Positions 9,413-63,591 of a stretch of 64,000 bases of DNA are shown one piece after another (position 1 is the first letter of the stretch; each line of letters opens with the position of its first letter). The translations under genes and the position numbers were made by a program. The notes below the pieces were generated by a model. It saw nothing but the letters and a program-made list of their open reading frames with translations, was not told the origin of the DNA and searched no databases. This DNA is from Stropharia rugosoannulata (lineage: Eukaryota > Basidiomycota > Agaricomycetes > Agaricales > Strophariaceae), in NCBI GenBank assembly GCA_028532985.1, contig JANCIK010000008.1:1116001-1180000 (forward strand), read 5' to 3'.

Positions 9413-10627
9413 TGACAGGGCTGCTTTTTGGCTACGGGTGTAAACAGTTAGGAGGTCCGCTAGTGGGATAGCTGCGCGTGGGAAACACAGAGGGACTAGA
9501 GTTGAGCCTGCCTCATAGTCTATAGCTATCAGCGCGCGAGCATCATGACTACAAGCACCTGCGCGCACCGTATCGCGAGAAGGATTGGTCAGCGAGCTGC
9601 ACAGTCTAGAGTGCATAGTTTGGCCGTCTGTGCGAGCGATCAGGGAAGCGTAGAACGGTTAAGCACCAGCAAAGAGCGGTGTGAGTACAGCTGAGCGGAT
9701 ACCAAAGGCGGTGTGAAGGGCTGTGCGCGTATCTCATATGCGCACATCGCAAAGGCAGAATTTGTCTAAGTCCACACATCATGTGACCGTGGCGGCGCGC
9801 ATCAAAAGACGCGCAAAAGCCCGAGGGAATGAACGACATGCGCGCAGCGAATGCCAAGGGATCAGGACACTCGAAGGGAAGCCCGGAAGCGATGCGCGGA
9901 CCTTTGGCCGTGTGTTGCTAGTATTTACTTTACCTTATTATTAGTACACATGCGTGCATCGCATATAAACCTGTATCCTTGTCTATAGTAATCTAAGCAA
10001 TTGTCTACCCACTAGATCTGTGTGCTGGGTTCTGTCCCAGGCCGTCAGCAGGCTGTGTTTAGCTTTTGTTAGGGTTTTAACTGTGAAGTGTTTGTGAATC
10101 ATAGGAGTTTTGGATAGCTTCTGACCACCGGGTCATTTGGAGAGCTCAGTGAGGAGTCAGTACAACCGTGTACGGAAACTCGCACTGTAGTGTTTAGACT
10201 GTGAGACTGCACTGCCGGGTGAAAGACTTTGGAGAGTCTTGGATTATTGGACTTTGGAGAGTCCGCGCATCGTACGAGGTCACCGGACCCGGAAGTGCGC
10301 GCAGCGAAGCCGTTCGCTAAAAACAACTTATTTCATTTATCATTTTTTGCTTTGCACACGCCACTAGCAACCGGGCTCTATCCGAGATTTACTAGAATTA
10401 AACCCCTCCTTACAAACGAACTTGCAGGCACTACTTGCTGTTACAAAGACTAGAGGACACGAGGTGCGCGCATCGCACGCCCAGAACGGGAACCAGAGCA
10501 GAGCATAGATTATACTACCATTTAGTTGAGGGCATTCGCTCGATCTAAGGGATAGGATCTCGCTCCGCTGGGTGTGTGTGTGTTGTTGTTTCGCGATTTC
10601 GAGTCTAGCTACGCAGTAGATCTCTCA
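9413..10627 (+). repeat. LTR1 5' long terminal repeat
   Basis: It runs from TG to CA and is 1215 bp long. TATAAA at 9964-9969 is the likely promoter. About a dozen GCGC words are visible. Short ORFs in it are shadows; the same ORFs appear in the 3' copy. Confidence 0.93.
9964..9969 (+). promoter_or_regulatory. TATA box in the LTR1 5' LTR
   Basis: TATAAA lies in the middle of the LTR, so transcription would begin near 9990-10000. The 3' LTR copy is at 24630-24635. Confidence 0.5.
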
Positions 10628-10629
10628 TC

Positions 10630-10647
10630 TGGAGCCCACCGCGAGGG
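10630..10647 (+). other. LTR1 primer binding site candidate
   Basis: TGGAGCCCACCGCGAGGG begins 2 nt after the LTR. It starts TGG, as expected for pairing with a tRNA 3' CCA. I cannot name the tRNA. Confidence 0.5.
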
Positions 10648-10883
10648 GAAGGTTCAGAAATCTCAATTAGTGTTTTGGGAACTACGGCTTGCGCCTATTA
10701 CAATAAATTTCAAAAATTTCAAATAAAACGGGGACGAGTAACAAGCGAGGCAAATTTCCTGCGCCTTCATCGCTCGCCGAGCCAGAAGAAGCCAGACCAT
10801 CCTTTGGAACGGTGCCTTCACGCGAGAGAACCACAAGGAGCAAGAAAGACGCTGAGCTGGTAGAGCCGTTGGTAATTACACCG

Positions 10884-12764
10884 ATGCGAGATAGAAAAGC
10901 AAAGAAAAGAGCGAGGGAGGAAGCGCAGTTGCAGATCGAGACTCAGGGATTAGCGCAGCGCATCCCAGGTGCGCTCACCGAAAGCGACTTGGAATTAAGA
11001 GTAGGGGCTAGTGGATTTTGGGGACCACCATCTGGCATTGAATCAGAGGACCAATTAGTGGACGGTGATATTACACTTGAAACCGCACCATTCGGTACTT
11101 CTGATAGCCAAGCTACCCAAGACACCCCTCCTCCATTCTCGGAAGTATTTGGGACTGCTAAGACGTCCGTGCAGCGCACGGCGGAAAATAGCGAAAGTGA
11201 AGCAGAGCGCGTAGCAAGAGATATATTTGAAGGAGACTTGTCAGATCTTTCAGAAAGCGAACGAAATTCACCCCCACGAGAACCAGAAACTATGCCTAAG
11301 GATATGTCCATGCCAGTACGCGGTGCGCGCGGCGCGCCGAGCTTCGATCCTGCTGCAGAGCGCGATGAGCTACCGCGGTACTTCGAGGACCTGGAGGATT
11401 GGTTTAAGCGCGCGGAGGTGACGGAGGACGATGAGAAGAGAGGATATGTAATCAAATATGTACCCATGCAGACGGCGGAGGAGTGGAAGAATTTACCAGG
11501 TTATGATACCAAGGGGTACGCGGAGCTCAAGAAAATGATTCTCAACGAGTACCCGGAGGTGATCAGCATTCAGACAGGGTCCATTGCGCAGCTCAAGAAG
11601 CTCTGCAAGGAAAATCAGCGCATCTCGGAGGAAGACCTCCAGGTGTTGCTGGACTTCAAGCGCGCGTTCTTGGCCGAGGCCGCTAAGCTCACGAAGGCGC
11701 CTACCCTGCTCGCGAATCATACCTTGGTAACTTACTTCACCAATAGTCTCACTGCGGGGTTCAGGGATCGCTTGTTTAATAAACTGGACATTGATTACAC
11801 GACGCGCGCATTGTTCGACAAGTTCTTGACTGAGCGCAATATACAGTTCACTGCACCTACTGGGGTGACGGTAGAAGCGCGCACCGAGGACATGTACCCT
11901 CTCAAACAGGTAGCCGAGATGGCGGAACAAATGGCCCGTACTAAGAACCCGAGCACAATGCTGAGCCTAGGGCGCGAAAGCACTGATGGACTTATGCCGG
12001 TGCCTGCCATCAAGACTGAGGCCGCGGATGTTGGTTCGCTGCGCGGAGAGATTGAGGACCTGAAAGGGTTCGTTGCCTCCTTCAAGGATACCTTGTCGTT
12101 AGTGGAGAAGACAGTGGCGAAGTCAAAGGAGTCGAGTAAGAAGGAGTTGGAGGACATTATCCGCAATGTCATGGCTGCGTGCGCCGCACCAATGTCGGTG
12201 CCTGTGCAACCAGTAGCCCCCATGATGCCCATGAGCGCACCGAGTTTTGGTGGAGCGCAGCCTAGGCCCTTCCAATACCAACAACGCCCGGAGCCTCGCT
12301 GCTTCTACTGCAAGCAGACGGGACATGTGGTTGCTGAGTGCATCGTACGGCAGCAAGACTTGTCAGCGGGGAGGATTGTCATCACAGAGGCGGGGCGCTT
12401 ACAGCTACCTGATGGGTCATCGATACCTTGGGACCCTTCGCGCGCGATTAAAGAGCGCGTTGACGAATGGCATAAGAAGAACGGGCAGCCCGTGCAGCAA
12501 GCGTATATGGCACCTGTCCACCCTTCGTACATGGGTATGCCTCCTAGCATGGTATACTCGCAGATGTACCAACCGGCCAGTTCCTTGGACGAGACCTATG
12601 AGGAGCAGATATGCGCACTTCAGCAAGAGCTGGAGAGTAAGAAGGCGTTCCTGAAGGAGCGCGCATCGGCGAAGACGCCTGAGGAAGTGATAGAGGAACA
12701 GCGCCAGTTAATAGCGACTATGAAAGCCGAACGCGACGCTGCGCTCAGTCAGGGTTTCGATTGA
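10884..12764 (+). CDS. gag: LTR1 Gag, 626 aa
   Basis: Capsid/nucleocapsid protein that packages the element RNA. The frame is open from 10812 (GTG), but the first ATG is at 10884. The N-terminal third is acidic and disordered; the middle has a retrotransposon-gag helical region (PRYFEDLEDWFKRAEVTEDD, then helices to about 11950). A coiled-coil stretch follows, then a CCHC zinc knuckle CFYCKQTGHVVAEC at about 12298-12340 and a C-terminal charged helix. The frame ends TGA at 12762-12764. GGGTTTC at 12752-12758 is in the right phase for a -1 shift into the protease frame. Confidence 0.85.
   Translation: MRDRKAKKRAREEAQLQIETQGLAQRIPGALTESDLELRVGASGFWGPPSGIESEDQLVDGDITLETAPFGTSDSQATQDTPPPFSEVFGTAKTSVQRTAENSESEAERVARDIFEGDLSDLSESERNSPPREPETMPKDMSMPVRGARGAPSFDPAAERDELPRYFEDLEDWFKRAEVTEDDEKRGYVIKYVPMQTAEEWKNLPGYDTKGYAELKKMILNEYPEVISIQTGSIAQLKKLCKENQRISEEDLQVLLDFKRAFLAEAAKLTKAPTLLANHTLVTYFTNSLTAGFRDRLFNKLDIDYTTRALFDKFLTERNIQFTAPTGVTVEARTEDMYPLKQVAEMAEQMARTKNPSTMLSLGRESTDGLMPVPAIKTEAADVGSLRGEIEDLKGFVASFKDTLSLVEKTVAKSKESSKKELEDIIRNVMAACAAPMSVPVQPVAPMMPMSAPSFGGAQPRPFQYQQRPEPRCFYCKQTGHVVAECIVRQQDLSAGRIVITEAGRLQLPDGSSIPWDPSRAIKERVDEWHKKNGQPVQQAYMAPVHPSYMGMPPSMVYSQMYQPASSLDETYEEQICALQQELESKKAFLKERASAKTPEEVIEEQRQLIATMKAERDAALSQGFD
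12752..12758 (+). promoter_or_regulatory. Putative -1 frameshift heptamer, gag to protease
   Basis: G_GGT_TTC fits X_XXY_YYZ in the gag frame, with one sense codon (GAT) left before the TGA stop. A -1 slip leads into the protease frame, which is open at that point. No downstream structure was calculated. Confidence 0.55.
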
Positions 12765-14038
12765 GTCTGATGAAGGGAAACACGGGCAGAGTTATGCGTA
12801 GCAGCTCTGATAAACCCAAGAACCCGGAGGGTGCAAATAAGAAGCTACCAATCAGAAATATACCCAGAGCATCAGTTGAGGACGCGAGTGATGATGAGGA
12901 AGATGAGTTGCGAGAAGTAGTGGAGGAGCAAGGTGCGCGCAGCGCGCCAGTAAAGAAGAAAGTAGTGTTCGAGGTTCCTGCAAAGGCTGGGCCTAGTGCA
13001 CGACCAGCAGCAGTGCCATATGTAATGGTACCTCCGCTGCGCGTTCCGGAGAAAATAAAACCTAAGGTTAGGGAAGAACCCATACCTGTAGTAGAGAAGA
13101 GGAAGCCGGCCTATAAGCTGCGCGCACCTATCGAAGATGAGGCGCAGGCTGACGCCGTCCTCAAACACTTAGAAAACCAGAAAATTGAGATCACGCAGGG
13201 CCAGTTGTTAGGCATATCGACTGCAGGTTTCAGAAGAAAGTTCGTTGAGCGCATAGTACCAAGAAAGGTACCATTGGATTTGAATACAATGCGCGTATTA
13301 CAACTAGACTACGATGAAGAAGAGCGTGAAGTAGATGAGGCTATCGCACGGTTAGCAGAGGAGGAAGAGGAAGAGGAGTTTATGCAGATGGACGAGCTAC
13401 CAGTGGCCACTTTCCTTACTTGCTCAGATGAGCGCAGCGGACTGCAACCGGGGACCATCATCATGGAAGACCCGTACGAGCAGTACATCTCGACTCTGCA
13501 GCCAGGCGAAAAGCCTAAGGGACTTATTGTGGCGCGCAAATCACACCATCTGAAGGCGGTATTTCCGCTCATCAACGGCAAGGGACACGCGGAGACGTTG
13601 CTCGACAGTGGGTCGCAGATTGTGTCAATGGCACAGGACACCGCTGAGCACTTAGGACTTAGTTGGGACCCGGACTTCACTATACGGATGCAGAGCGCGA
13701 ATAAGCAGGTGGAATCCACCAAGGGTTTAGCGCGCAACGTACCATTTGTGTTTAACGGGCTGACAGTGTATTTACAAGTACATGTCATCAGCGCAGCGGC
13801 TTACGAGGTGCTCTTGGGCAGGCCGTTCGAGATCCTCACGGAGAGCAATGTCAAGACGCGCGGCGATGGAACGGTTGAGCTTACGCTCACCAACCCCAAC
13901 ACACAGCGCAAATTGGTCGTACCCACCTATAACCGAGGGTGTGGTCCCAAGATTGTGCAGCGCGAACCTAAGTTGCAGGACCCTGGCACAACGGAAAACC
14001 CTAACGCAGATCAGGATTTTCAATCCTCGATGATTTGA
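12761..14038 (+). CDS. pro: LTR1 aspartic protease ORF (Pro)
   Basis: Processes the Gag and Gag-Pol polyproteins. The frame is open across the gag stop and its first ATG is at 12770. The N-terminal half is charged and low in complexity. The protease lies in the C-terminal half: LLDSGSQIVSMAQDTAEHLGL at about 13589-13650 gives the DSG catalytic triad, followed by a hydrophobic segment and the VLLGRPF flap-end motif (about 13810). It occupies its own frame between gag and pol, which is unusual for Ty3 elements, where protease is normally fused to pol. It ends TGA at 14036-14038, and that TGA overlaps the ATG of pol by one base. Confidence 0.8.
   Translation: MSLMKGNTGRVMRSSSDKPKNPEGANKKLPIRNIPRASVEDASDDEEDELREVVEEQGARSAPVKKKVVFEVPAKAGPSARPAAVPYVMVPPLRVPEKIKPKVREEPIPVVEKRKPAYKLRAPIEDEAQADAVLKHLENQKIEITQGQLLGISTAGFRRKFVERIVPRKVPLDLNTMRVLQLDYDEEEREVDEAIARLAEEEEEEEFMQMDELPVATFLTCSDERSGLQPGTIIMEDPYEQYISTLQPGEKPKGLIVARKSHHLKAVFPLINGKGHAETLLDSGSQIVSMAQDTAEHLGLSWDPDFTIRMQSANKQVESTKGLARNVPFVFNGLTVYLQVHVISAAAYEVLLGRPFEILTESNVKTRGDGTVELTLTNPNTQRKLVVPTYNRGCGPKIVQREPKLQDPGTTENPNADQDFQSSMI
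14014..14020 (+). promoter_or_regulatory. Putative -1 frameshift heptamer, protease to pol
   Basis: G_GAT_TTT sits in phase with the protease frame, 15 nt before its stop. A -1 slip enters the pol frame, open from there on. The alternative is re-initiation at the overlapping TGATG (14036-14040). Confidence 0.55.
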
Positions 14039-17000
14039 TGCGTCAAGGAGAGGTCGCGTTGATGTTTGACAGAGATGATCGCACGGGAAAAATAGAGATA
14101 GCAGGGTACGCGCTACCAAAGAATAAGAAGCGGTTTGGGAGCGCTGAGCTCAGGGATGTATACATGGCTCAAGCAGTACATGAGGCAAAGATGGAGGATG
14201 ATGAGAAAGAAAGAATATACAAGTATTTTCAGCAGCGCGAATGGCGCAAAGAGGAAGTAGTCAAAGGAGAGCCTAGGGGGCAGTTCCGCGCATCGCATGA
14301 GGAACAGGTCCCTAGTAAGAGACAAGGAGTAACGCATAAGCGCTTGACTGGCAAGAATGCCACAACCGTTACGGTGCTCGCAGGAAAGAAGTATAAGCCA
14401 GTGGCTGAGAAAGTCAGGCCCGTCTATCAAGATTTACCAGAGAAGTTTAGAATAGTGAGGGAGATAAAAGGAGACCCACTAAAGGACATGCCGCAATTGT
14501 CACCACATCCGCCAGACTTTGTACCTACAGGTCGGTACACCGCTGAGCGCATGGAAGGGATTGACAAGGCGCATGAAGGGGATTTCCTGTGGTCCGAGGA
14601 GCGCAAGTTGGTGCATCAAGTTTTCATGCAGCAGAACGAGGCGTTCGCGTGGGATGACACAGAGAAGGGTAGATTCCGTACGGACTTCTTCCCTCCAGTA
14701 GACATTCCCACTGTAGAGCACACGCCTTGGGTATTGAAGAACATTCCGATACCACCTGGGATGTATGAGCGCGTATGTGAATTCATCGCCACCAAGATTC
14801 GCGCAGGCACGTATGAGCCCTCGAGCTCGTCGTACCGGTCGCGCTGGTTTACAGTGACTAAGAAAGACGGGGTCTCGTTCAGAATTGTGCACAGTCTTGA
14901 ACCGTTAAATGCGGTAACCATTGCACATTCAGGACTACCTCCAGCAGCGGAGAGTCTAGCAGAACACTTTGCAGGGCGCGCATGTGGCGGCATCCTGGAC
15001 TTGTATGTTGGGTACGATGAGCGGCTGTTAGCTGAGTCCTCTAGAGACCTGACTACATTCCAGACGCCGTTTGGTGCGCTGCGCTTAGTAACCCTACCTA
15101 TGGGGTGGACGAACTCTGTGCCCATCTTTCATGAGGATGTCGCATATATATTACGCGATGAAATACCCGAAATTACAGAGCCCTACATAGATGATGTACC
15201 TATTAGGGGACCTAAGACGCGCTATGAGTTAGAGGGAGGAGGATACGAGACGATACCAGAGAATAAAGGAATAAGGAGATTCGTATGGGAGCACATGTTG
15301 AATGTCAATAGAATCGTGCAGCGCATGAAATACTCAGGAGGAACATTTAGTGGGAAGAAGTCCATACTGTGCGCGGCTGAGATAGTAGTGGTGGGGCACT
15401 TGTGCACATACGAAGGGCGAAAGCCAGCACCTGATAAAGTGCATGCAATCCTCAATTGGGGGCCATGCAAGAACATCAGTGATGTGCGCGCATTCATGGG
15501 TACAATGGGTCTGCTCCATATTTACATCTCAGACTATGCGAAGCACGCAGAGCACATACAGCGGCTATTGCGTGGGAAAGAGCCCTTTGAGTGGGGGCCC
15601 GCTCAACAAGCTAGCATGGACTCGCTGAAAGACGGTGCGCGCAACGCACATTGCGTGAAACCACTGGACTACACGTTGCCAGGGCCGATTACTTTGGCTG
15701 CAGACACATCATGGCGAGCAGTAGGATTCTACATTTACCAGCAGGACCCACAAGATTCGAAGAAGAGGGTATATGCGCGCTTCGGATCAATACTGTTAAC
15801 GGAACGCGAACAGTGCTTCTCACAGCCCAAACGGGAGTTATATGGGCTCTTACGTGCGCTACAAGCCTGTTATTACTGGCTCATCGGTGCGCGCAAGCTG
15901 GTGGTGGAAACGGATGCCAAATACTTGAAGGGCATGTTGGATAACCCGGGCATGGGCCCTAATGCGACTATTAATCGCTGGATAGATAAAATACTTATGT
16001 ATCACTTCCAGTTGAAACATGTTGCGGGCAAAACCTTTGGGGCGGATGGTTTATCGCGTTGGGAAGGGCAATCGGGAGATGAGGCGTACGCGCACTCGGA
16101 AGAAGATAATGATCAAGAAGTAGGACCGCTCGAATATGAGAAAGTCTATGAAGAGGACCCGGATCCCCTGGACTTTGAGGAGTTCAAAGAACAGATTGAC
16201 GATCGCGGCGGGTATCTATACACAGGACTACTCAACGAGTTGTTTGAAGGTCCCACCGCGCGCAAGTTACCAGAAGCGCGCTCTATAGGCTGTTTCCAGC
16301 AGGAGCTCGAGCGCGCACGGAAAGAGACGGAAGCGGAAAAGCGGGCCGTGCGGGACTTCATACAGAAAGAGAGTGTGCCGCTCGCGCAGCGCGAGTATTT
16401 AGAGAAATTCATACTAGCACATGCGATACCCGACTCCAGAATAGAGGATCTGGAGGATGAAGAGTACGATGAGCGCAACAGGACGTCTGCAGGAAAAGAT
16501 ATGGATGAGAAATTGCCGATGATACACTACTGGTTGCAGAATCCAACCACTAGGCCTAAAGGCATGACGGAGCGAGAATATCAAAACTTTACGAGGAATG
16601 CTCGTAACTTCTTCTTAGACAAGGATGGGCGGATGTACCGGAGATCCATAGATGACGCGCATAAGTTGGTGATAGATCAGGCGCAGCGGACATGCATGAT
16701 GCGCTCAGCGCATGACAGCTTGGGGCACAGAGGAGCGTACGCTACGCGCAAACTGCTAGCTGAGCGCTTCTGGTGGCCGGAGTTGGAAAGGGATGTCTAC
16801 TGGTATGTGAAAACATGTCATGTCTGTCAGTTAAGACAGAAGACAATCATCCAGATCCCGCGCACCGAGACACACACGCCGTCTATCTTCCAGCAACTAC
16901 ACGCGGACACTATGCACATGTCCCCGGCCTCCAATGGGTATAATTACATAGTGTACGGAAGATGTGCGCTGAGCTCATGGGCGGAAGGACGGCCATTAAA

Positions 17001-17973
17001 GAAAGAGAATGCCCGTGCAATAGTGCAGTGGATATTCGAGGACATTATCTGCCGTTGGGGCTGTCTACAAGAAATCATCACAGATAACGGTGGACCGTTC
17101 CGCGCAGCGCTTAAGTATTTAGAAAAGAAGTATGGGATTACAGGGATTACCATCTCAGCGTACAACTCGCAAGCGAATGGCAAGATAGAGCGTCCTCATT
17201 GGGACATAAGACAGATGTTGTGGAAAGCATGTGGAGGGACAGAGGGCGCTCACAAGCGTTGGAGTAGATTCTTCTACCATGTGTTGTGGGCTGACCGTAT
17301 CACCGTACGACGAGGATTTGGGTGTTCCCCATTCTTCATGGTGACGGGCGCGCACCCCATACTACCATTCGACATAGCAGAAGCGACTTGGCTGGTGAAA
17401 CTACCAGATCGTGTGCTGACTACGGAGGAGTTAGTAGGGTATCGCGCGCGCGCACTAGCCAAACATCGCGACACAGTAGAGGAGATGCGCGCACGAGTAT
17501 CAAAGACGAAAAGAGATGCGATCAGGGCATTTGAAAAGAAGCACTCGGCTAAAATCCGTGACTATGTGTTTAAGCCAGGAGATGTAGTGCTAATGAGGAA
17601 CTCGGGCATAGAATCCAGTCTGAACCGTAAGATGCTCGCACGGTGGAACGGGCCTTACATCATTATCGCACGAAAAGATGGTGGAGCGTACTTAGTGGCA
17701 GAGATGGATGGCTCTGTGTTGAAGGATAAGGTGGTGGCGTTCCGCCTCATTCCTTACTTTGCACGGAGGCAGCTGCGCTTACCGGACGGTTTGGATGATA
17801 TAATTGATCAGACCAAGGAGAACCTAGCTAAAATGTTAGAGGCGCCGGACTATGAGCCAGCTATTCCCAAAGATTATATCTTTGATGAGCCCGGTGTACC
17901 CTCGGGTAGCGGTGCGCTTACAGTAGAAGAGGATGAAGAAGATGATGATGACTGGGGCGAAGAAGACACTTAG
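14035..17973 (+). CDS. pol: LTR1 reverse transcriptase, RNase H and integrase
   Basis: Copies the element RNA to DNA and integrates it. First ATG at 14038. RT: SFRIVHSLEPLNAVT, then GWTNS and the YIDD active site (15184-15195). RNase H: LAADTSWRAVGFYIY and VETDAKYLKGML, ending HVAGKTFGADGLSR. Integrase: HHCC zinc domain (AHDSLGH to CHVCQ, about 16710-16835), then D,D,E core residues in LHADTM, ITDNGGPF and NGKIER. A GPYIIIARKDGGAYLV segment follows; there is no chromodomain, only an acidic tail. The frame is intact. Charged linkers between RNase H and integrase are long. GCGC words occur throughout the coding sequence. Confidence 0.92.
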   Translation: MMRQGEVALMFDRDDRTGKIEIAGYALPKNKKRFGSAELRDVYMAQAVHEAKMEDDEKERIYKYFQQREWRKEEVVKGEPRGQFRASHEEQVPSKRQGVTHKRLTGKNATTVTVLAGKKYKPVAEKVRPVYQDLPEKFRIVREIKGDPLKDMPQLSPHPPDFVPTGRYTAERMEGIDKAHEGDFLWSEERKLVHQVFMQQNEAFAWDDTEKGRFRTDFFPPVDIPTVEHTPWVLKNIPIPPGMYERVCEFIATKIRAGTYEPSSSSYRSRWFTVTKKDGVSFRIVHSLEPLNAVTIAHSGLPPAAESLAEHFAGRACGGILDLYVGYDERLLAESSRDLTTFQTPFGALRLVTLPMGWTNSVPIFHEDVAYILRDEIPEITEPYIDDVPIRGPKTRYELEGGGYETIPENKGIRRFVWEHMLNVNRIVQRMKYSGGTFSGKKSILCAAEIVVVGHLCTYEGRKPAPDKVHAILNWGPCKNISDVRAFMGTMGLLHIYISDYAKHAEHIQRLLRGKEPFEWGPAQQASMDSLKDGARNAHCVKPLDYTLPGPITLAADTSWRAVGFYIYQQDPQDSKKRVYARFGSILLTEREQCFSQPKRELYGLLRALQACYYWLIGARKLVVETDAKYLKGMLDNPGMGPNATINRWIDKILMYHFQLKHVAGKTFGADGLSRWEGQSGDEAYAHSEEDNDQEVGPLEYEKVYEEDPDPLDFEEFKEQIDDRGGYLYTGLLNELFEGPTARKLPEARSIGCFQQELERARKETEAEKRAVRDFIQKESVPLAQREYLEKFILAHAIPDSRIEDLEDEEYDERNRTSAGKDMDEKLPMIHYWLQNPTTRPKGMTEREYQNFTRNARNFFLDKDGRMYRRSIDDAHKLVIDQAQRTCMMRSAHDSLGHRGAYATRKLLAERFWWPELERDVYWYVKTCHVCQLRQKTIIQIPRTETHTPSIFQQLHADTMHMSPASNGYNYIVYGRCALSSWAEGRPLKKENARAIVQWIFEDIICRWGCLQEIITDNGGPFRAALKYLEKKYGITGITISAYNSQANGKIERPHWDIRQMLWKACGGTEGAHKRWSRFFYHVLWADRITVRRGFGCSPFFMVTGAHPILPFDIAEATWLVKLPDRVLTTEELVGYRARALAKHRDTVEEMRARVSKTKRDAIRAFEKKHSAKIRDYVFKPGDVVLMRNSGIESSLNRKMLARWNGPYIIIARKDGGAYLVAEMDGSVLKDKVVAFRLIPYFARRQLRLPDGLDDIIDQTKENLAKMLEAPDYEPAIPKDYIFDEPGVPSGSGALTVEEDEEDDDDWGEEDT

Positions 17974-18100
17974 ATGTGCGAGCACCGTAGGAAGAAAAGT
18001 GACCACAATATAATATATTGGGTAAAGAAGATGGGGAATACAAAGAGAGCTAGCTACAGACGCCCCTTTAAGGCGTGCAGCGCACACTGAGCCGGGCTAT

Positions 18101-19416
18101 CTACTGGGCCGGTTTGTCCTCGGTGGCAGTAACGCCAGTAACGTCGAGGCTGCGCTGCAAGATGACAAGCTGCTCGACGAGGAGCGCGCAGCGCTTGAGG
18201 ATGAAGTCGACCTTGTGGAGATCACAAATGATCTCTGCTTGTAAATCACCAATGAGGCGGCGCGTCACCAACTCGGAAGGGTTACCCGTATTAAGGGGCT
18301 CCTTAAGGAGGTTAGCGGCGGCATCAAGACAAGCATTGACCTTGTCATTGTCCAAAACGAGAGAAGTGCCTGAGGGAGAAGGGTTAGAAAAGATTAGTAA
18401 GAGAGTGGTGCAGTGCGCGCACCTTGCATAATAAAAGAAGAGTCGGGGAACGTAGGAACGCCCTCTGAGCCCAGCCTGGCTTTCTTAGGAGAGGCTTCAC
18501 CTGCGGCGGCGTCACGGAATGAGCGACGAAGCTCGGTCTGACGATAAGTCATGCCTCGACCAAGGGGACGAGAGCAGTAACCAGGAGTGTCTCCGCGCTC
18601 GCGCTGGTATTTCTATAAGAATCTAAGTGCGTGCAGCGGAGACGGGTCAAACACACACCTGTTTAGGAGTATCAGGAGGCGCGGCGCGCTTCTTGTTAGG
18701 GCTCGGCTCAGGTGTATGCTGCCTGCTGGGAGGACCTCCCTCAGTCGCGGCTTCAACTTTATTGTCGAGGGCCATCTTTTTGAGGAGCATGTAAAGTTGC
18801 ATGTTAGTGATGTCTGGTAAAGAAGTGAAGGTTAGCCACACCTTGTCATCGTCAGAGTCAGGAGATGTAGTACCTCCAGGCGCGGAGGCGGTCTCAAGGT
18901 CCGCAGTTGCGGAACGCGTAAGAACGCGAACGTTGCGCTGCGCGCACCAAAAGGGATTAAGTGTAGAAAGGGTTAGGAAAGGAAAGATGAGCGCACAGGT
19001 CCAGTAGGGGTATGGGTGCGCTGACGAGAAGCGGCAGCCTTGGCCTTGAGGACTTGTTCATGCAAGTTGATAAATGCGTTGGCGGCAGGAGAGAAGGAGC
19101 GAATGTGGTGGTCAGCCTCGAGCGACGTATATATGGCTCGAGTCTCATTGAGTATCTCGATAGCCTCATTGTTGTTTATAACGCGAGTGATACCGCCGTG
19201 CGCGTCGCGCCAGCGGTTCTGCAATCGTGCCAGACGAAGTCAGTAACATACCACACGGGAATCGCGCGATGCACGCACCAAATCGACAGCAAGTAGCTCC
19301 AGACTGCCGGTGTAATTCGCAGGAGTGGCAGAAGCCAACCCACGAATGTCCTGGATCAGTGAGAGTTGATGCTTGACATTGGTGAAGTTAAACAGAGGAG
19401 CATGAGTAGTAGCCAT
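18101..19416 (-). CDS. LTR1 antisense gene 3, unknown protein
   Basis: Multi-exon minus-strand gene. The Met at 19416 (start MATTHAPLFNF) follows a TATA box by 60 nt. Exon blocks are seen at about 19416-19250, 19220-18990, 18910-18660, 18600-18430 and 18365-18101, separated by GT-AG-like introns of about 40-70 nt. The protein (roughly 330 aa) has a helical N-terminus, a central Ser/Pro/Lys stretch with a likely nuclear signal (NKKRAAPP) and a helical C-terminus (DNDKVNACLDAAANLL, then LVEQLVILQRSLDV). I recognise no family. Exon edges are approximate. The open frame over five blocks and the promoter argue that this is a real gene. Confidence 0.5.
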
Positions 19417-19474
19417 AGTGGTGGTTGAGGAAGTAGGAATAAAATGCGATGCGCTCATACAGAAACGGCGAGCG

Positions 19475-19482
19475 CTTATATA
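19475..19482 (-). promoter_or_regulatory. TATA box of antisense gene 3
   Basis: TATATAAG on the minus strand, about 60 nt upstream of the ATG at 19416. Confidence 0.5.
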
Positions 19483-19926
19483 GCATTCACTGGGATGATC
19501 AGCACTGCGCGCAGCTGGTGACCGACCGAACAGCAGGCCCAAGGAGTTAAGGAAGGAGGGACTTTACAAAAGGTCCAGATGGGTCATAGCACAGGGCTAC
19601 ACCTGTCTAACGTTACATTCACGGAGATTGAGGGGGATGGAAGGGACCTGAATACAAGAGCCCATATAGCAACGAGAAGAAGGGGGAAGATCGTGCGCGC
19701 ATCGCAGCAGAAGAGTGCGCGCATCAAGGGAGATGCAGGTCTTTCCCCGTTTGGCAAAATGATGTCTGTTTTTGGGATTGATGCCGAAAGTGCATAACAA
19801 TGTTACCCGACAGTCTTATTTCAAATACAGGGTCATGACACATGTACCAAGAAATAGATGCTAGCTATGAGTATAGATAGTTATCAATGGAAAGACAGCA
19901 GAGTGTCAGTTCGGGAATTAAACATC

Positions 19927-21017: not shown

Positions 21018-21055
21018 GTAAGGCAGTAAAGAAACTGTCAACTGGGGACAGTTGA

Positions 21056-27468: not shown

Positions 27469-27470
27469 GT

Positions 27471-32755: not shown

Positions 32756-32758
32756 TGA

Positions 32759-55200: not shown

Positions 55201-56058
55201 TGTCATATTCTTCGTCACGACTATTCAAGTCATGTAAATCATCGGCCATGTCAGAGTCAAAAAGTGCTTCGGCCTCGTTCATGTAATGTCTCTTTGGCGC
55301 CGATGATGGTCCATGTTTTGTACCACGAAGTGCATGCTGTTCGGCCAAGTCTGTATTTTTTTCGTGCCTTTCAAGCCAGTCTATTTGCTGCTCCATGCAT
55401 GTGCAAAAATGAGGTTGATCGTGATGTTTGACCACAAGGTACCCTCCAGCTTCCCACAAATCGGCCTTCCGAAAGTATGAACCCTCCCACCGTTCCACTC
55501 GATGCAGTGGGTTTACTCTGTGCGCTTCCCGCAAGCATGCCCTGCATAAGACATTCAGTAAGAGACATTCTCGGCAGCGCCATATTGCCTGATTTGATTT
55601 ATTGCATGATTTACAAGTTTGGATGCCGAGCAGCAGCGATTCCCTTGACAGCAACGCAGCCAAAATGGGGTTCGTGCGCTGCACAAATTCGTGAATATAG
55701 TGATATGTAGTCTTCGAAGATACATTAATGAGCTTGGTACATGTCTGCCATTTGATGTGTAACTCACCTTTCTGATCCTCGGTTCTGGCATATCAATACC
55801 AAGTGGCCCTTCGGCCAAGCCTTCGGCATCGTGATGGGAGGGTTCGGCATCTACATTCAACATCCTGGCCTCCAATTGACTCGGCATTACAGCAGGGCTT
55901 TCAGCGCTGCGTACAATGAATGCCTCGGCCTCTCGGCCACTTCTGGTAGTCGTCTCGGATTGATAGAAAACTTCATCATTCATGGAAACATCGGTTTCTA
56001 AAATAACAGCGCCTCTTCGACGAATTCGCTTTCGGGGGCACTCAGCGTTGGATGTCAT
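52205..56058 (-). pseudogene. KDZ-B transposase with CxC2 cluster, probably inactive
   Basis: Start at 56058 (MTSNAECPRKRIRRR). An intron follows RIRK at 55768. The CxC2 cluster is QTCKSCNKSNQAIWRCREC, CRAC. The KDZ core has YDIVCQYKV (about 54040), HVHAHKDEC and GEILESMWS (about 53860). The first motif reads NGNFKADH (54450-54470), where KDZ-A has DGNFKADH, so the first catalytic Asp is Asn. Near the C-terminus, TGA at 52205-52207 follows HEMQWTV where KDZ-A has Arg; the frame stays open for about 60 more codons. Both changes fit C-to-T at CpG (GCCGAT to GCCAAT, CGA to TGA). Exons match KDZ-A in order and intron position. Confidence 0.75.
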
Positions 56059-56244
56059 GATGGATGTGGGGGGATTATGTGGAATTGATGCCCGTTTGAG
56101 CATTTATAATAGTTGGGCACATGTTAGTGTCATGGCTCAGTGGTGTTACTCTCCTGTTGAACACATGTTGATATATTAAAAGTGCATGTTGTTACCTTTA
56201 TATACATAGCACACGACTTGATTGTTGACTGGCCCCATTCTCTA

Positions 56245-58951
56245 ATGCCTGCACTGCAAACCACAGACACAGTCTATCCCCCTTGTCGGCATGGCCCAAG
56301 TCGCAACAATCGCAGGTACTCAGATGAGGAAAAGGCACTAATGGAAAAACATAGAGCTGAGTACTTTGGGGCGTCTAACACTATTGAACGTCGAACAGTC
56401 ATTTGTGAAGGGATGTTGGAAGATTTGTTTAAGCAGTGGGACGGTGAGGTCCCAGGGGGAAGGGACAATATTGACAGAAAAAATGTCTCCAAGGTGCGTT
56501 CCTCTCATGCCTTCAACAAACTTTTCATTAACCTTACAACTTGTATAGACATTGCTGGATTACATTCGCAATAATTGGAGATCAAAAGCGGTTCAAAAAT
56601 TGTCGAAGTTGTCTGTAAAGATTTCAGAAGTCCTTTGGCTGAATCATCGCAACAAAGTGTACGAAGAAATATACAAAATTCAAGGTGTTGAGCCTGTTCA
56701 TCAGGAAAATGACTTTTGTCCCCAGGGGCTTTGTATCTCCCTGGCACTGCCTTAGAGATCCTAAGGCTCAAGGTGTATGTCCAGACAATTTCTTTCGTTT
56801 CAAATCCATAGCTATCGGCAACTTGTTGAAACAAATGTCGGCCGAAGATCTGGAAAATCTGAAAGCCGAGAAGCATAAGCTTGCCGATCAAGGACTGCCA
56901 TTGGAAGTCAGGGCCGAGTACGTCATTCAATTGATGTCAAATAATGTTCATATAAGTCAATTGTTGATCTACATTTGTTGAAGGCGCTGCAAAAAATATG
57001 CTTCGGCCAGAATTGCTGATGCCGATCGCCGAAACTGGCTTGAAATGGGTTTATTATCCTTGACATTTACGGCAGGACCTTACAATGGGTATCAACTTGG
57101 TTTTACAATGTCGGTAATTCGATCTTTGTTTGTGATGTACCAATTGCTAATCAAAACATAGTCAAGATAATATGAGCAAAGTTGTCGGCACAAGATCACA
57201 GTCATTTGAAGCCAAGCATCCCGATCTTTGTGAGGATGTTCTGCGTAAGCTAAAGGCGTATGTCCGCAAAATCAATAACACAATTGCTACGACGCAAACA
57301 GCTGCTGGACATGCGCAAGGGGATATCGCGGTAATCAGGCCGGATAATCTACTTCCTGAGATAATAAATGTCCCATCCATCACTGAGTTGAACAAAATGC
57401 GGCAGAAAGAACTTGGTGACATATATCGGCTGTACATCAATGCCCATTACAGTATTGTTGCCGAAATTTTTGAATTTTATCAGAACTCATTTTTATACAG
57501 AAGTTGCGACTGGATTCAAATATGCATCGGCACCGTGGTCAGATATGCAGAAGGATACAAATGCATATGTGGAAAAAAGTTGCCTACCTCATGGTTTCGT
57601 GCTTGTGAACCCGAACAAGGCAACGAAGGATATCTTGATTAAGTTTATTACTTGGATCAATGATCGGCAACGGGTGCATACACGAATTAAGGTCTTTCGT
57701 TTTCAATTTGTGAACGAGACTTGGAAGGCTGGCCAGAATTTACTAATTCGAGCAACATACCCCGGTGACGAGAATTACAATGTTGAAGAAGTTAATAACG
57801 CCAGGAAGACAGCCGCAAAAAAAAAAAAGCAAAGCAAAGCGTGGCGCACCAGAAGTACAAGGGCCGATACTCAGGACTTTATTAGTGAGATTATTTTGAT
57901 TTGTATTGTCAAAATTGATCATTTTATTAACGATTACCACAAGACAGATGCTCAGCCAATTACAGGCAATGGAGGGACCTGGAAAGATTATACATTTACC
58001 TTTCAAGTGCAGCATGATACTACACCTGCAGTCGAGGAATCTCTCGCATCGGCCAGTGTTCCATCTGATTCTGCTGCATCATTGGCACAATCCTCGGCCA
58101 CACAATCTAATGAGAGTCTTCCATCGGCCAATAATCTATCAGCCCCGCAGCAATCACTTACATCTATGTCGGCAGATATGCAATCCACAATTCCCGACGT
58201 CTTTACTGAACTCCCCCAGTCATCGGCCAAACAACCTGTCATAAACTACACATCGGTCAATGAAACACCGGGCTCTTTCAATTCTCAAATGTCAGGCTCT
58301 GTCAATCCTTCGTGCGGTGGTGTCACTTTGCCAGCAATCACTGCATCGGGAATGGATGCCTGGGGTATGGCCGATTTTAATATATCAACAAATGTACCTC
58401 CATCCTGGAACACTTCAACATCCGCTGTGGATTTGGCCACAATGACATCTTCATTTCAAACATCCTCAAATTACCAGTGGGATTCAAATATGATGCCGAA
58501 TGCTATTCAGCAATATGATCTTCGGCCACATTCATCAGGTGCCAAATTGATCCATGTGGCCGATCCCTTGACGAATTATTGGGATAATCTTAATGAAAAT
58601 CAATTTCGTAATACTTTTAATTTTCCTGGCTCCCCACCGCCGGCATTTGGCACTGTTCCTGGTTCCTCAGTGCCTTCGGTATTGGAAGGAGACATGCCGA
58701 CAACAATCCCGCATCTTTGTCACATGCCTCACAATGCAATATCTCGGCCAAGCATGAATCATTTACATGACAATCCAGGTGGTTTACCGACCCCCCGACA
58801 GTCAGCATCCCCAGCACCTGGACCCATAGCAATGCGCAAGTCTGCCAGGATAAGCAATTCAAAATTGAGTGCCAAAAGAAACACTGCGAATAATGGTTCG
58901 GCAACAGATTCTAATTCAAAGCAGACAAAAAAAGGGAAGCGGCGGAAGTAG
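56245..58951 (+). CDS. KDZ-B ORF-c: partner of KDZ-A ORF-c
   Basis: Start at 56245 (MPALQTTDTVYPP). Several short exons with introns near 56495-56545, 56655-56680, 56920-56985 and 57450-57500. The helical N-terminal part has DYIRNNWRSKAVQKL. HYKVATGFKYASAPWSDMQ matches HYALATKSLRGPPYTSIQ in KDZ-A across an intron at the same place. The last exon (to 58951) is Ser/Asn/Pro-rich, with many SA and SAT from TCGGCC words, and ends in a basic block RKSARISNSKLSAK and KKGKRRK, a likely nuclear signal. Exons in the middle are approximate. Function unknown. Confidence 0.6.
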
Positions 58952-58995
58952 TTCATGTCATAGCCATATATCATTCATTACATACATGGTATTAC

Positions 58996-59519
58996 TCATT
59001 TATCTCCTTCGGCAATGATATCGAAAATTTCTGTCTTGTATGCATCGGCCATCACTTTCAATTGGTTCCAACCTTGCTTTTTTTCCTCAGCAAATTGTAG
59101 TCTTTGGAGCTCTTCAAAATACACCAAGGTTGTAGCTGTCAAGTACGAACAACCGTCGAGTTGCTGATAAGCCAGTATTCTCGCATGAAGGGCAAGAAGT
59201 TCTTGGTCTGTTAACACCTGCAAATCGTGATCGCAGGCCGACAACCAATGAGTCCTTAATCATTATCAAAAAAAAAATTGTGTACTGGGTCATTCGGGGT
59301 CCGCACACGCATCGGCGATACTTCAACATATCCCCTGTCAAGGGCAGGTTGTGGCTGCTTACAAGTCATTTTCGGCTTAAATAGAACATATAAGTATTAT
59401 GTACTTACTACAGTGCTTGCCGAATCTACTTGCAATTCCTGTCTGGCTTCGTGCAGAAACCGTGCCAACTTGTTGGCCAGTGCAAGAACGGCTTTAGATG
59501 ATGCAGTGTCGTCGGTCAT
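58996..59519 (-). CDS. KDZ-B small ORF, helical protein of about 120-130 aa
   Basis: Start at 59519 (MTDDTASSKAVLALANKLAR). An intron starting near 59405 leads to a second exon ending at 58996 (LTDQELLALHARILAYQQL, then a helical tail). It has no cysteine cluster, signal or membrane segment. There is no counterpart in KDZ-A. It lies between the 3' end of ORF-c and the six-Cys gene, divergent from the latter. The family is not recognised. Confidence 0.4.
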
Positions 59520-59713
59520 TCTGTATGTCAAGGTGCCAGAAGAAACAACTTGAGTGCAATGCGTTGCCGACAGTCCGAACAATCACGAATAAACATGATC
59601 ACGTGATTTTGTTGAATGATTTCGGACCTCGCAAGGCCGGCTGGTGCATCGTCATTTTGTACTCTGCTTCCTGCCCACGCATCATTCTCATTTTGCTACC
59701 GATCACCTTCAAC

Positions 59714-62700
59714 ATGTCCGACCTAATTCACGATTATAGCAAGGACCTGGCACAGTACAAAGCCTGTCTTGCCCGCATGGACGCGCTTTTTCGGCAGAGC
59801 GTAAAGGATCGCAACCTGGAATTCGTAATCAAGAGGGAGAAAAAGGAATTGGTGAGTTGTTTTGTGTTCAATACTGGCTTGTCATACGTACCAGTTAAAT
59901 GACGCATCTCCAGGCAGCCATTACCACACACTGTCTTGCAATAACTGTTGATTGGGATGACTGGTCGTTCATGTCCCTCGTTATGCGCTTCCGGGAGTTG
60001 AAGGAGAACACAATACCGAAGGAATTTCCTCTCGCACTGGAACTCTTCTGCGACAGGGAAGCTGCTGCGGCCGAGCCTGAAAGCGTGCCAACCAGGTCAG
60101 ATAACTTGAATATAGGCCGAGAACGAGATGGCTCCACAGCAGGTACTTCGGCAGCAGTTAGGCCGTCCGCAAAGCCATCCAAGCCAGCTACCGACACGCG
60201 GCCAGTGCCAACTGATTTGTCGCAGCCTCGTCGCACACATCGACCACCTCAGAACCTGAACGCGTCTGCTCAAGAACAGCAAGTAACGTCACTTGCTTCA
60301 AGTATTCGCGAACTCTCAATGGGGCCTGTAGTGGCAAAACCGCCACAGACCGAAGCTGTTGCCCATGCCGAAGATGATACGCGGCCGAAGAAACCGAAGC
60401 GGAAAGCAGCGCCTGTTGAGGAAGTTGAACGATCAAAGAAGCAGAAACGCTCAGAGATGTCTGCTGAAGACGTATCCCAGAAGCCAGTACGAGAGAGATT
60501 ACCCGCAAAACCTCAAAAAGGACTTTTCTGGTCCCCACAATGTGCATGGTGTGTCAAGTCCAACCAGCAGTGCCACGTCAAGGAGGAGAAAGCCACGGCA
60601 CGTAACAAGAAAAAAGCATGCCTCGAATGTGCAAACCGAAAAACAGTGTGTACATTGGGGAATTCAACGGACGCCACGCAAGTCACAAAGCCCGACCTTC
60701 GGCGTCGGCCAGATGCAATGGACGAAGGCGACGATGATATTGAGAGTGAGTAGTCATCGGCATCAAACATTAAGGCGCATCACTCACCACAGTCCGTCAA
60801 TTCAGGTATGGACAACAATTCGGAATCAGAAGATGAAGTAGAGGCCATACAGCTGCCTGTCCGCAATAAGTTGGAGAAGAGAAAGGAGATGGAGAACGCA
60901 CGCCAGTCCATAAAGGACATTGTCACAGAATGATCATTGGCTGCCCCTTCAAAACCTCCGCCGACAAATTCAACTCAGCAATCGAAGGGTAAGGGGGTCA
61001 CTTTACCATCACAACTGATGAAGGAACTTCGGGGTGCACATGCCACAAAGGTGACCCTGGCGACGTCGACTTCGGCCACAACAATTGTGGTTCGGCCACG
61101 GGAACAAGGTAAGTTTGTATTCTCAAGGTATACTAATCAATTACACTGATTTTAAATCTTAGTTGCACTTCCTAAGGAAAGTCAGTGCACAGCCGTTGCA
61201 ACAGCCCAGGATACGCAACGAGACAATATCTCATCTTCACGGCCAAAAGAACCCGCACCCCCAAAAGTAGCCGAACCACAGCGTGCACCACCAGTTCCCT
61301 CCTCGATACAGACAGGTACGAGGGCCGAGCTACAACACAATGCGGCTAACTTATACGTACCTCAAGAGAGCACCATGGCTGCAAATGTACCCACCCCCGT
61401 TGCGCAAACGACTCATGCAGCTTCATTGTTGCCGACGACAGCGAATGCCAAACGTGGGATCGCAAGTCAGAGTACATCGTTGCCGACACACTCTGTTGCC
61501 GAACATTCGGCACCAATGACGACTAGACTTCGTAAGTACAAATTTCCATTTCCACTTTCAATAAATCAACTCAAAATGCATTGAAGCTGTAGAGCAAGTT
61601 TTCTTTCAAAGCCTAGACGGTCGGCTTTGGGATGTTGAGCGCAAGGTCGCGTTCTTCTATGCAGACAAAGGCAAGACTGATATGAAGCATTACACAACGT
61701 GTGCATACCTCCAAGACACCATCACGAATGTTCAATCTGATGCAAGCAAAATGAAAGAAACATACGATAAGCTTGAGGAGAGACTGCATAGCTTGGAAAC
61801 AGATGTTTCGGCACGCCTAGCTGTGATTGAGGCTGTGCTTGGCTTGTCATCCAAAAAGCGTATGACGACTTCGGCAATGCCATCGGCCCCTCCTGCTGCC
61901 GAACAAATCCAGGAGGCAAGATCCATAGCCGATAACATCATTCAAGATGCACAGAAGCAGGCTCAGGCTATATCGGATGCTGTCTTTGCACAGTCATCCA
62001 GTGTCATTGCAGCTGCAAAGTCCCGGGCCAGGTACATTGTGGCACACCCAGAGGAGGTTGCCTATGAGGAAGGCTCCGCTGATCTCACTGCAGAGTTAGG
62101 CGATCTCGAGGATCTTCGAGATCAATTGACACTTAATAGTAAGTTTTACATGATTTGCAGTGTAACCTGCAGTTTAATCGTCATATATGTTTCTAGATTA
62201 TGATGACTACGGTGACGGAGAGAATATCAGGCACATTGTGGATGCCGAACCTGATTTCGAAGATGTCAATAACGGTTTGCTGGAAGTGTTGGAAGCACAA
62301 ATTTACCGAAAGGATCCACGGCGCACCAAGAAAAAGCGTCTGCCATCACATTATCCTCAGGCTGAAGATGCTGATATCCCTCAAGATGAAATGCTCCAAG
62401 AGCGTGTTGTGTCCCCCATGGAGTCTAAGCAAGCAAGAGTCACAACATCGGCAGCTCTTACTTCTGGGGCTGCACAGACTTCTTTGGCCGTGCAAAGCTC
62501 TTTGGCCGCACAAAGCTCTTCGGCCATGCAAAACTCTTCGGCCACGCAAGCCACTTCGGCCACGCAGGCTTCCTCATCTACAGCTCCCGACAGGTCGTCA
62601 AATTCTTTATCTGCACTTGTTCGCCGTTTTCCGATAGGACCACTGCGTTGTTCCTTGTCACCAGTGACTGAATTCAGTGCCGAAGGGGCAACATGTGATG

Positions 62701-63287
62701 AGCATGAGGCTGCTGAGCAAGTTGGCACCGTTCACATGGATCTTCCCCCCATAGCTGTTTTGCACTCCCTGGCCGAAGATCAACCGATGGACCTGGAGGA
62801 ATCTGTGGCCGAACCTTTGTCATTGCAACCACCGCTTCCTAAGAACTTCAACAGCTGGGGACCGACTTGGGGTGTTGACGGCACCGCTGCTGAGACTTTC
62901 CCTTCGGCCGCACCATTTGTTGGAGATTGCAATGCACCATTGGGAGCCAGGTCAATGCCAGTCGAGGAGAACAGGGCTCCCAGTACGCCCTTGCCGAAAT
63001 CTGCTGCCGAAAGTCAAGCAGATGTTCAAGTAGGTGACAATGCTCAGGAGAATCCCGTGGATGTAGATGCACCAAACGTGGTAAATCCCTTTTCGGCACC
63101 TGAGGAAGGCGATCATTTGGACAAAGGTATGAATGCGCAGCAGCGGCCGAATACGAGGTCGGCTTCCAACACGTTACAGGGCACCTGCGGACGTAGCACC
63201 TTGGTGAAGCCGAAAAGTCGGGCTCGCGATCCCTCTGAGAAACCGAAATCTCGTGCATGTGCTCCCTCAGAAGAATGTAACCCATGA
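59714..63287 (+). pseudogene. KDZ-B six-cysteine, zinc-cluster-like protein gene with an in-frame stop
   Basis: Exons: 59714-59851, 59914-60745, 60806 to about 61110, about 61163-61530, about 61588-62140 and about 62198-63287, with GT-AG introns. Order: helical N-terminus, linker, nuclear signals (KKPKRKAAP, RSKKQKR), cluster CAWCVKSNQQC then CLECANRKTVC (60540-60652), coiled coil (MKETYDKLEERLHSLETD), disordered Ser/Ala/Thr-rich C-terminus. The spacing C-x2-C-x6-C twice is that of Gal4-type clusters, with a 15-residue linker. TGA at 60931-60933 interrupts exon 3; the same frame continues open behind it, so a CGA-to-TGA change is likely. It has the same plan as the KDZ-A six-Cys protein but the opposite orientation in the element. 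Confidence 0.6.
62480..62585 (+). repeat. 18-bp tandem repeat inside the six-Cys gene of KDZ-B
   Basis: About five units of 18 bp encode six-residue units of the SSxAxQ type. Each unit carries one TTCGGCC, or TTTGGCC in which the CpG is lost by C to T. Confidence 0.7.
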
Positions 63288-63591
63288 ATGTTCGGCCCCT
63301 CATCTTCATCAGCACATTGTTCTATGTACCCTCTATTGTAATTAACTTTAATTAATAATGCTCAAATAAAGTGTGTCATCTCCAGGCCGATGAGTCAATA
63401 TAGTCAAAATAATTTATACATCAGACTTTCTAACTGGCCACTATATATGTCAAAGACTTATGAGCATATCCATAATGTATTATGAATTTACTACATGTTT
63501 ACTACTAACTAAAATAGTTCATCGGCCTCGGTCATGGTATATGGCTAATCCCAGTGAGATCCCCCGAGCGCCTCATACGCCTACACTGGGG

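Follow-up and report, generated by a model that had tools for sequence, protein, structure and literature searches.

This analysis concerns a 64,000-nucleotide stretch of the Stropharia rugosoannulata genome (the window; G000:C8:1116001-1180000, in an assembly of 48 Mb and 20 contigs), and in particular three transposons within it, each of which pairs a gene for a protein with six clustered cysteines (six-Cys) with a short DNA ‘word’ of its own. Two of these, KDZ-A and KDZ-B, encode transposases of the KDZ family; the third, LTR1, is a Ty3-like retrotransposon with long terminal repeats (LTRs). A fourth element, LTR2, serves for comparison. An initial annotation of the window had suggested that each protein recognizes its own element's word, perhaps to prevent silencing. 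Of these two proposals, self-recognition is well supported by sequence, while anti-silencing is plausible.

Elements, genes and words of the window

The features are collected in Table 1. KDZ-A has CA..TG termini (CACATAGG..CCTATGTG) and, as we read its flanks, a 7-bp duplication, CAGGTCC. Its six-Cys protein comprises a charged N-terminal part, the zinc cluster and a coiled coil. KDZ-B had been ended at 63591; its imperfect terminal inverted repeats make the extent in the table the probable one. A six-Cys cluster is present in each of the three elements, as annotated, and the adjacent helix or coiled coil that was also claimed is modelled for KDZ-A and judged by eye for KDZ-B and LTR1. The three had been called unrelated transposons, which does not hold for the first two: both have KDZ transposases, and their domains align at all six cysteines.

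Table 1. Features of KDZ-A, KDZ-B, LTR1 and LTR2 in window coordinates
Feature	Position	Strand	Basis or remark
KDZ-A transposon, filled with CCGGCGG/CCGCCGG	33356..46644		inverted ends, flanks, word counts
KDZ-A terminal inverted repeat, left arm	33356..34034		679-nt identical inverted ends
KDZ-A terminal inverted repeat, right arm	45966..46644		679-nt identical inverted ends
KDZ-A six-Cys gene	43199..45482	-	ATG at 45480-45482; predicted exon structure
KDZ-A zinc cluster, C-x2-C-x6-C-x18-C-x2-C-x7-C	44156..44278	-	cysteine spacing, AlphaFold2 (AF2), Foldseek
KDZ-A long helix/coiled coil behind cluster	43730..44041	-	AF2 model, helix 99-185
KDZ-A transposase main exon (KDZ + CxC2)	37577..39754	-	PF18758 E 1.9e-43, PF18803 E 2.1e-21
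KDZ-A example of 12-bp-spaced doublet, CCGGCGG-N5-CCGGCGG	33914..33932		
KDZ-B transposon, filled with TCGGC	49657..63698 (ends approximate)		imperfect terminal inverted repeats, word counts
KDZ-B six-Cys gene	59714..63287	+	several predicted exons
KDZ-B zinc cluster, C-x2-C-x6-C-x15-C-x2-C-x6-C	60541..60651	+	cysteine spacing
KDZ-B helical/coiled-coil-like stretch	61751..61846	+	judged by eye
KDZ-B transposase exons (KDZ, CxC2)	53595..55792	-	PF18758 E 7.7e-39, PF18803 E 9.1e-17
LTR1, Ty3-like LTR retrotransposon, filled with (T)GCGCGCA	9413..25293		identical 1.2-kb LTRs, 9413-10627 and 24079-25293
LTR1 pol	14005..17973	+	RT_RNaseH, Integrase_H2C2
LTR1 six-Cys gene	21424..23525	-	antisense, between pol and 3' LTR
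LTR1 six-Cys cluster, C-x2-C-x16-C-x8-C-x2-C-x7-C	22111..22233	-	six Cys invariant, 6/6 aligned
LTR1 helical stretch after cluster	21853..21975	-	judged by eye
LTR2, chromodomain Ty3 element (comparison)	27006..33221		PF00385 E 8.2e-15; 5-bp TGGAC duplication

The words had been described as private to each element and spread over its whole length, and counts against 200 dinucleotide-preserving shuffles per element agree: all three lie above the shuffles, and they occur in exons, introns, spacers and termini. In KDZ-A, CCGCCGG/CCGGCGG occurs 65 times (shuffle mean 1.19, maximum 6). Only C and G occur at the central position, CCGACGG and CCGTCGG both being absent from the element, and ten 7-mers of the same composition occur 0-1 times each. 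The core CCGGC reaches 12.0/kb inside KDZ-A, with two occurrences in each 2.5-kb flank, and peaks at the ends (15 and 17 in the first and last full 500-bp bins vs 3-9 elsewhere). Word density is 4.47/kb in coding and 5.69/kb in non-coding DNA (these and the corresponding densities below come from an exon mask drawn by hand), and the transposase contains words in all three reading frames. Strand use is nearly even (31/34), which points to DNA rather than RNA as the target.

In KDZ-B, TCGGC/GCCGA occurs 133 times (mean 19.2, maximum 30) and the longer TCGGCCA 32 times (mean 1.55). TCGGC density is 9.5/kb inside, with two occurrences in the left 2.5 kb and none in the 409 bp of right flank that the window contains; it is 9.81/kb in coding and 8.64/kb in non-coding DNA. 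No preferred distance between TCGGC words stands out, and many of the most frequent spacings are multiples of three. In LTR1, GCGCGCA is found 73 times on either strand (mean 3.9, maximum 11), which corresponds to 46 distinct sites because 27 are the palindrome TGCGCGCA, counted twice. It is absent from the left 2.5 kb and from the right 1.7 kb up to LTR2. The shorter GCGC (15.9/kb inside; 1 in the left and 16 in the right 2.5 kb) gives a blurred border. Coding and non-coding densities of the LTR1 word are 3.65/kb and 5.85/kb. The internal plus strand of LTR1, from 10628 to 21400, has a purine fraction of 0.58 and strong G and A skew.

LTR2 had been offered as a negative control. It serves as one in that no six-Cys gene and no strong word was seen in it, but less cleanly in that CGCGC is mildly elevated (33 vs 13 expected) and GCGCGCA stands at 0.64/kb. 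LTR2 may use its chromodomain in the role played in LTR1 by the six-Cys gene.

Words and six-Cys genes across the genome

The KDZ-A six-Cys protein has 41 matches in the genome and that of KDZ-B 21, themselves included; the LTR1 protein has at least 107, with 92 of 227 candidates scored. In one search, with the KDZ-A protein as query, no homologue was found outside the S. rugosoannulata genome at E <= 0.001. Word and gene go together across these families. CCGSCGG occurs at 4.89, 3.77, 3.58 and 3.83/kb in four KDZ-A groups and at 0.00-0.09/kb in KDZ-B and in KDZ-C, a further family; TCGGCM at 8.17, 5.86 and 3.43/kb in KDZ-B groups and at 0.38-0.59/kb in KDZ-A; and GCGCGCA at 4.60 and 4.52/kb in two LTR1 groups. 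Some words stray from their families: LTR1 relatives contain 10 CCGSCGG (0.31/kb), and TCGGCM reaches 1.56/kb (L048) and 1.04/kb (L006 with L066) in control groups. These densities are for selected groups, from which loci L008, L014, L027 and L046 (element parts entered via L059-L064), the degraded or partial loci L018, L022-L026, L028 and L033-L038, and L051 were omitted. Genome-wide, CCGSCGG doublets number 171, vs 51 for a control with the pattern backward, and 43 of the 50 listed on the plus strand fall in four KDZ-A elements.

One case allowed the association to be followed from word to gene. Locus L004 (KDZ-C) was picked as a KDZ transposase, and its word, CCGCGGC, was noticed before any six-Cys gene was known there; the 7 kb beside it proved to hold a 733-amino-acid open reading frame (ORF) with the pattern C-x2-C-x6-C-x8-C-x2-C-x6-C and a helical-looking tail, as the pairing of word and gene predicts. 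At the word-less KDZ locus L006, no six-Cys ORF was found in 3.6 kb plus 7 kb upstream (10.6 kb, one flank). The KDZ loci L001-L003 also lack a word, the words alone having been read there.

Within KDZ-A the words turn over. The 5.4-kb block that holds the transposase exons is 81-86% identical among three subfamilies and contains 25, 25 and 26 words, of which 14 are common to all three, 12 to two and 10 private; two of the common positions are reversed in orientation (alignment columns 5066 and 5298). Words are retained exactly in 58-76% of cases, other 7-mers in 33-48%, other CpG-containing 7-mers in 26-44% and the few 7-mers with two CpGs in 20-54%. Retention above background, together with private words, indicates that words are both kept and gained or lost: KDZ relatives keep the zinc domain and the word while the word's positions change. 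In the transposase block subfamilies A2 and A3 are closest (86%). The six-Cys region differs: the alignable stretch between A2 and A0, the copy in the window, is 1.9 kb long (67%), that between A2 and A3 just 0.6 kb (64%). An exchange of modules among the three may have taken place.

The LTR1 family offers a switch of word. A sister group, represented by the single copy that was read (L067, 3.4 kb), has Pol 89% identical to that of LTR1 and a cysteine domain only 34% identical. It contains no GCGCGCA; instead CAGCGGA occurs 12 times (0.7 expected), CAGCTGAG is enriched too, and the word is best written TCAGCKGA (2.35/kb vs 0.05/kb in controls). CAGCGG doublets span the entire element, including pol and both putative LTRs, and number 610/602 genome-wide vs 196/205 for the control. 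A different word and a diverged domain beside near-identical Pol suggest that the word switched element-wide together with the protein. Counting this pair, at least five protein–word pairs are available for comparison.

The antisense position of the LTR1 gene is recurrent. Among 35 genomic copies of pol, at least 27 have a six-Cys match 0-9 kb downstream. The eight without one among the scored candidates are C11:891668, C5:299963, C6:3267364, C13:1537583, C3:3568231, C7:419097, C1:4014805 and C3:1923701, the last with a match 19 kb off and KDZ-A2 in between; there, at G000:C3:1904218-1927663, a KDZ-A2 element separates pol of an LTR1-like element from its six-Cys gene. In copies whose Pol is 94-98% identical, the six-Cys matches are 54-97% identical, mostly below 83%. 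These values are low in part because introns were read through; they suggest fast evolution or gene exchange. In the window itself, an older gene-bearing element may have received LTR1, LTR2 and KDZ-A as nested insertions, its pieces lying at 6600-9412, 25294-27005, 33222-33355 and 46645-46870; profile matches to DUF6729 and to a 3'-5' exonuclease lie left of LTR1.

The six-Cys proteins and their sites

Zn2Cys6 domains follow the consensus C-x2-C-x6-C-x5..12-C-x2-C-x6..8-C. The KDZ-C cluster (2-6-8-2-6) fits it, and those of KDZ-A (2-6-18-2-6/7) and KDZ-B (2-6-13/15-2-6) fit save for a longer middle loop. The initial annotation had taken all three window proteins to be of Gal4 type, which does not extend to LTR1: its spacing, 2-16-8-2-7, lies outside the consensus, and the Pfam scan gave no Zn_clus match. 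HHalign compares KDZ-A with KDZ-B at E 0.0022 (probability 13) and the KDZ domains with that of LTR1 at E 0.13 (probability 0.5), a match weak enough that we do not claim a common origin. The Zn_clus profile PF00172 is matched, weakly, by 8/8 members of the KDZ-A/KDZ-B alignment (best E 1.1e-4; KDZ-A0 2.9). The AF2 model of the KDZ-A domain has pLDDT 78-89 by block over the cluster, with short helices where the CxxC motifs lie, followed by a long helix. Its eight PDB matches in Foldseek are Pho7 (2), Put3 (2), AlcR, Ppr1, Hap1 and CBF3, seven of the eight being Zn2Cys6 regulators; CBF3 has a Zn2Cys6 subunit, though the matched chain may be another. A microtubule-doublet entry, the top VIA row, matched the long helix alone and was set aside. 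Judged by model and sequence, the KDZ proteins are apparently divergent members of the Zn2Cys6-coiled-coil type, and the LTR1 domain, which has no Zn_clus match, is treated as a separate invention, not recognisably Zn2Cys6. A KDZ-B-like zinc cluster also occurs at L048 (G000:C1:5013824-5017672), with no KDZ nearby and no strong word, possibly a host or domesticated relative.

The KDZ words can be read as arrangements of CGG. Everted CCG-n1-CGG occurs at 4.89/kb in KDZ-A vs 0.03/kb in pooled controls, everted n0 CGG at 1.49/kb in KDZ-C vs 0.15/kb, inverted n0 CGG at 1.25/kb in B7 vs 0.05/kb, and TCGGC at 9.53/kb in KDZ-B vs 1.13/kb. Doublets of the KDZ-A word exactly 12 bp apart number 9, 3 and 5 in three elements, where about 0.2-0.3 are expected from N(N-1)/L; four of the 9 make up two mirror pairs located within the terminal repeats or close to them. 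Locus L010 has 4. Known Zn2Cys6 proteins vary the layout of CGG half-sites in this manner, with direct repeats read by TerR and everted ones by Leu3 (PMC4360782, in excerpt). Of the hints that the words are the proteins' binding sites, this likeness is the strongest.

As to silencing, old KDZ-A copies have lost up to 96% of their CpGs to TpG/CpA. Of the 32 loci that match TET/JBP enzymes, a demethylase type, 27 have a KDZ within 9.5 kb. An A- or B-type six-Cys gene was detected within 9-9.5 kb at 33 of 88 KDZ loci, and 14 of these 33, all of A type, have a TET/JBP match too; 13 of the 88 have TET without a detected six-Cys gene, and 42 have neither. Transposase, six-Cys gene and TET/JBP match stand together at loci of KDZ-A2/A3 type (C13:1386185-1399738, C3:1907692-1918868, C8:120723-130973 and 11 more). 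It is the TET/JBP matches beside six-Cys KDZ loci, with the heavy CpG loss, that make an anti-silencing role plausible.

Interpretation and comparison with known systems

Self-recognition is supported in that word and six-Cys gene co-occur, stay together and change together, and in that the KDZ words are CGG half-sites. We consider it fairly probable that each family encodes its own sequence-specific, probably dimeric, zinc-cluster protein, that selection keeps the word, and that the pair serves VANC-like self-marking or anti-silencing, including TET targeting. The protein would dimerise via its coiled coil and sit on words about once per 80-350 bp of its own element. In the KDZ elements it would read CGG half-sites laid out everted-1 in KDZ-A, everted-0 in KDZ-C and as single TCGGC in KDZ-B, with inverted-0 CGG plus TCGGC in B relatives; in the LTR1 family a different six-Cys protein would read near-palindromes, TGCGCGCA or, in the sister subfamily, TCAGCKGA. 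An element so coated would be marked as self, and its chromatin most likely kept unmethylated or open, by analogy with VANC, such that methylation of that element alone is prevented or reversed. In TET-bearing KDZ elements, the protein would probably guide the element's own TET/JBP demethylase. Words in coding DNA make sense on this account if the element has to be covered from end to end.

Several observations weigh against it. Among decaying copies, CpG loss is 152/577 (26%) inside words and 838/2803 (30%) outside, pooled by hand over 16 non-independent KDZ-A copies; word CpGs are thus lost about as fast as others, words are destroyed in decaying copies, and lasting local protection is not apparent. 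No TET match was found in or beside KDZ-A1 and KDZ-B loci, KDZ-C, or KDZ-A0 and LTR1 of the window. PF00172 scores are below the 21-bit cut-off (KDZ-C 7.9 bits) save for L048 (21-22.5 bits), which is not near a KDZ, and some matches span just half the cluster. The Foldseek E-values, 0.43-8.9, are none of them significant singly, and a PDB profile search puts unrelated zinc proteins ahead of AlcR (E 0.75) and Leu3 (E 1.4). For the LTR1 domain no match was obtained, and its AF2 model, being poor (pLDDT 54.6), was set aside. As to the words, 12-bp doublets are missing from L029, an A3 copy; the KDZ-B word is short, its doublets only 1.9-fold enriched genome-wide (487 vs 258); KDZ-C doublets are not enriched genome-wide (22/24 vs 53/48), KDZ-C being one element; and there is some strand bias in LTR1 gag-pol (16 vs 8) and in L067 (CAGCGG 5 vs 14). 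The gene-less, word-less KDZ case is one family and one flank. Finally, L051, which is related to LTR1 (six-Cys match 83%), has no GCGCGCA; it looks decayed, as its CpG is depleted (observed/expected 0.52), and degraded KDZ-A copies have few words or none (L018 0, L024 0, L023 1).

Other uses of the words can be imagined. They might serve transposition itself, through synapsis, recruitment of transposase or compaction of the DNA, rather than chromatin state. The concentration of KDZ-A words near both ends and the doublets within its terminal repeats speak for this, but words also run evenly through exons and introns, and the same pattern marks an LTR retrotransposon, a type of element that moves without excision; we regard this use as unlikely. 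Equally unlikely, in our estimate, is a protein role in ordinary activation of transcription from the element's genes, with any word beyond the promoters a spill-over. Zn2Cys6-coiled-coil proteins are usually transcription factors, and so are most fold matches of the KDZ-A model, yet coding density is close to non-coding, all frames are used, and private words occur inside the transposase block. A role in transposition or transcription is the main rival; even coverage of exons and occurrence in an LTR retrotransposon tell against either as the sole function.

That mutation, repair or codon bias produced the words, with the gene a passenger, seems to us very improbable. The words are G+C-rich and mostly CpG-rich, as such a bias might produce, but the shuffle controls, the 0-1 occurrences of same-composition 7-mers and the use of all frames argue otherwise, as do unrelated words in adjacent elements of one genome and the destruction of words by CpG loss in old copies. 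We give as little credence to the idea that words guide new insertions into or beside marked elements, producing nested clusters. LTR1, LTR2 and KDZ-A do lie within 38 kb, and KDZ-A2 sits inside an LTR1-like element on C3; the host elements, however, bear different words, to which a private word would not guide insertion, and nesting is common in repeat-rich DNA.

The wider claim—that two transposon classes in fungi, cut-and-paste KDZ elements and LTR retrotransposons, each have a private protein–word code, with the whole element, codons too, remodelled as a dense array of sites for its own zinc-cluster protein, the code diversifying as families split, and targeting of the element's TET in TET-bearing KDZ—we hold to be about evenly balanced. 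If it is true, sequence-specific self-recognition by transposons occurs outside plants and in two element classes, under selection so strong that even codons are shaped to hold words; transposon-borne TET enzymes gain a candidate targeting partner; and Zn2Cys6-like domains with several half-site codes form a natural series.

Element-encoded, sequence-specific anti-silencing is already known from plants. En/Spm TnpA binds repeated motifs of its own element and is linked to demethylation; its motifs are subterminal only, whereas the words described here are not confined to subtermini, and the protein family is different. Our searches of open-licence PMC literature brought up no such system from fungi, none based on zinc clusters, none in LTR elements and none whose words lie inside codons. 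The closest parallel is VANC of the Arabidopsis VANDAL elements (Mutator-like elements, MULEs), for which binding and demethylation have been demonstrated and whose words are mainly non-coding, often in tandem repeats (PMC5735166 and PMC10398659, in excerpt). As far as those excerpts go, both systems join an element-encoded protein to a short, family-enriched word, related proteins have different words, and word density matters in VANC. The fungal words differ in being scattered singly, through codons too, and are known here from sequence alone; the elements have a KDZ transposase or Ty3-type pol instead of a MULE transposase, the host is a fungus, and Pfam scans of the element proteins gave no VANC domain.

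Zn2Cys6 factors of the AlcR/Leu3 type share with the KDZ proteins the cysteine spacing (exactly, in KDZ-C), a coiled coil after the cluster and CGG half-sites. They differ from them in the 13-18-residue loop between Cys 3 and Cys 4 of KDZ-A and KDZ-B (AlcR also has a long loop there), in that the KDZ proteins are transposon-borne, and in the proposed target, the element itself. Among KDZ elements, those named Kyakuja have a 7-bp duplication and CA..TG ends without terminal inverted repeats (PMC12730594, in excerpt). KDZ-A shares the duplication and the ends and differs in its 679-nt inverted repeats; for comparison with Kyakuja-type ends, KDZ-B offers only imperfect terminal inverted repeats and approximate limits. 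The text of that paper, which treats TET/JBP-bearing KDZ elements, does not contain the words ‘zinc’ or ‘cysteine’, and the excerpts name no self-word or partner protein; unlike the elements it describes, KDZ-A0, KDZ-B and KDZ-C have no TET match. The LTR1 gene, lastly, resembles the aORF-3R antisense ORFs of LTR retrotransposons, whose function is given as unknown (PMC7264820, in excerpt), in being antisense and located between pol and the 3' LTR; with the candidate function and DNA word proposed here, such ORFs would gain a role that can be tested.

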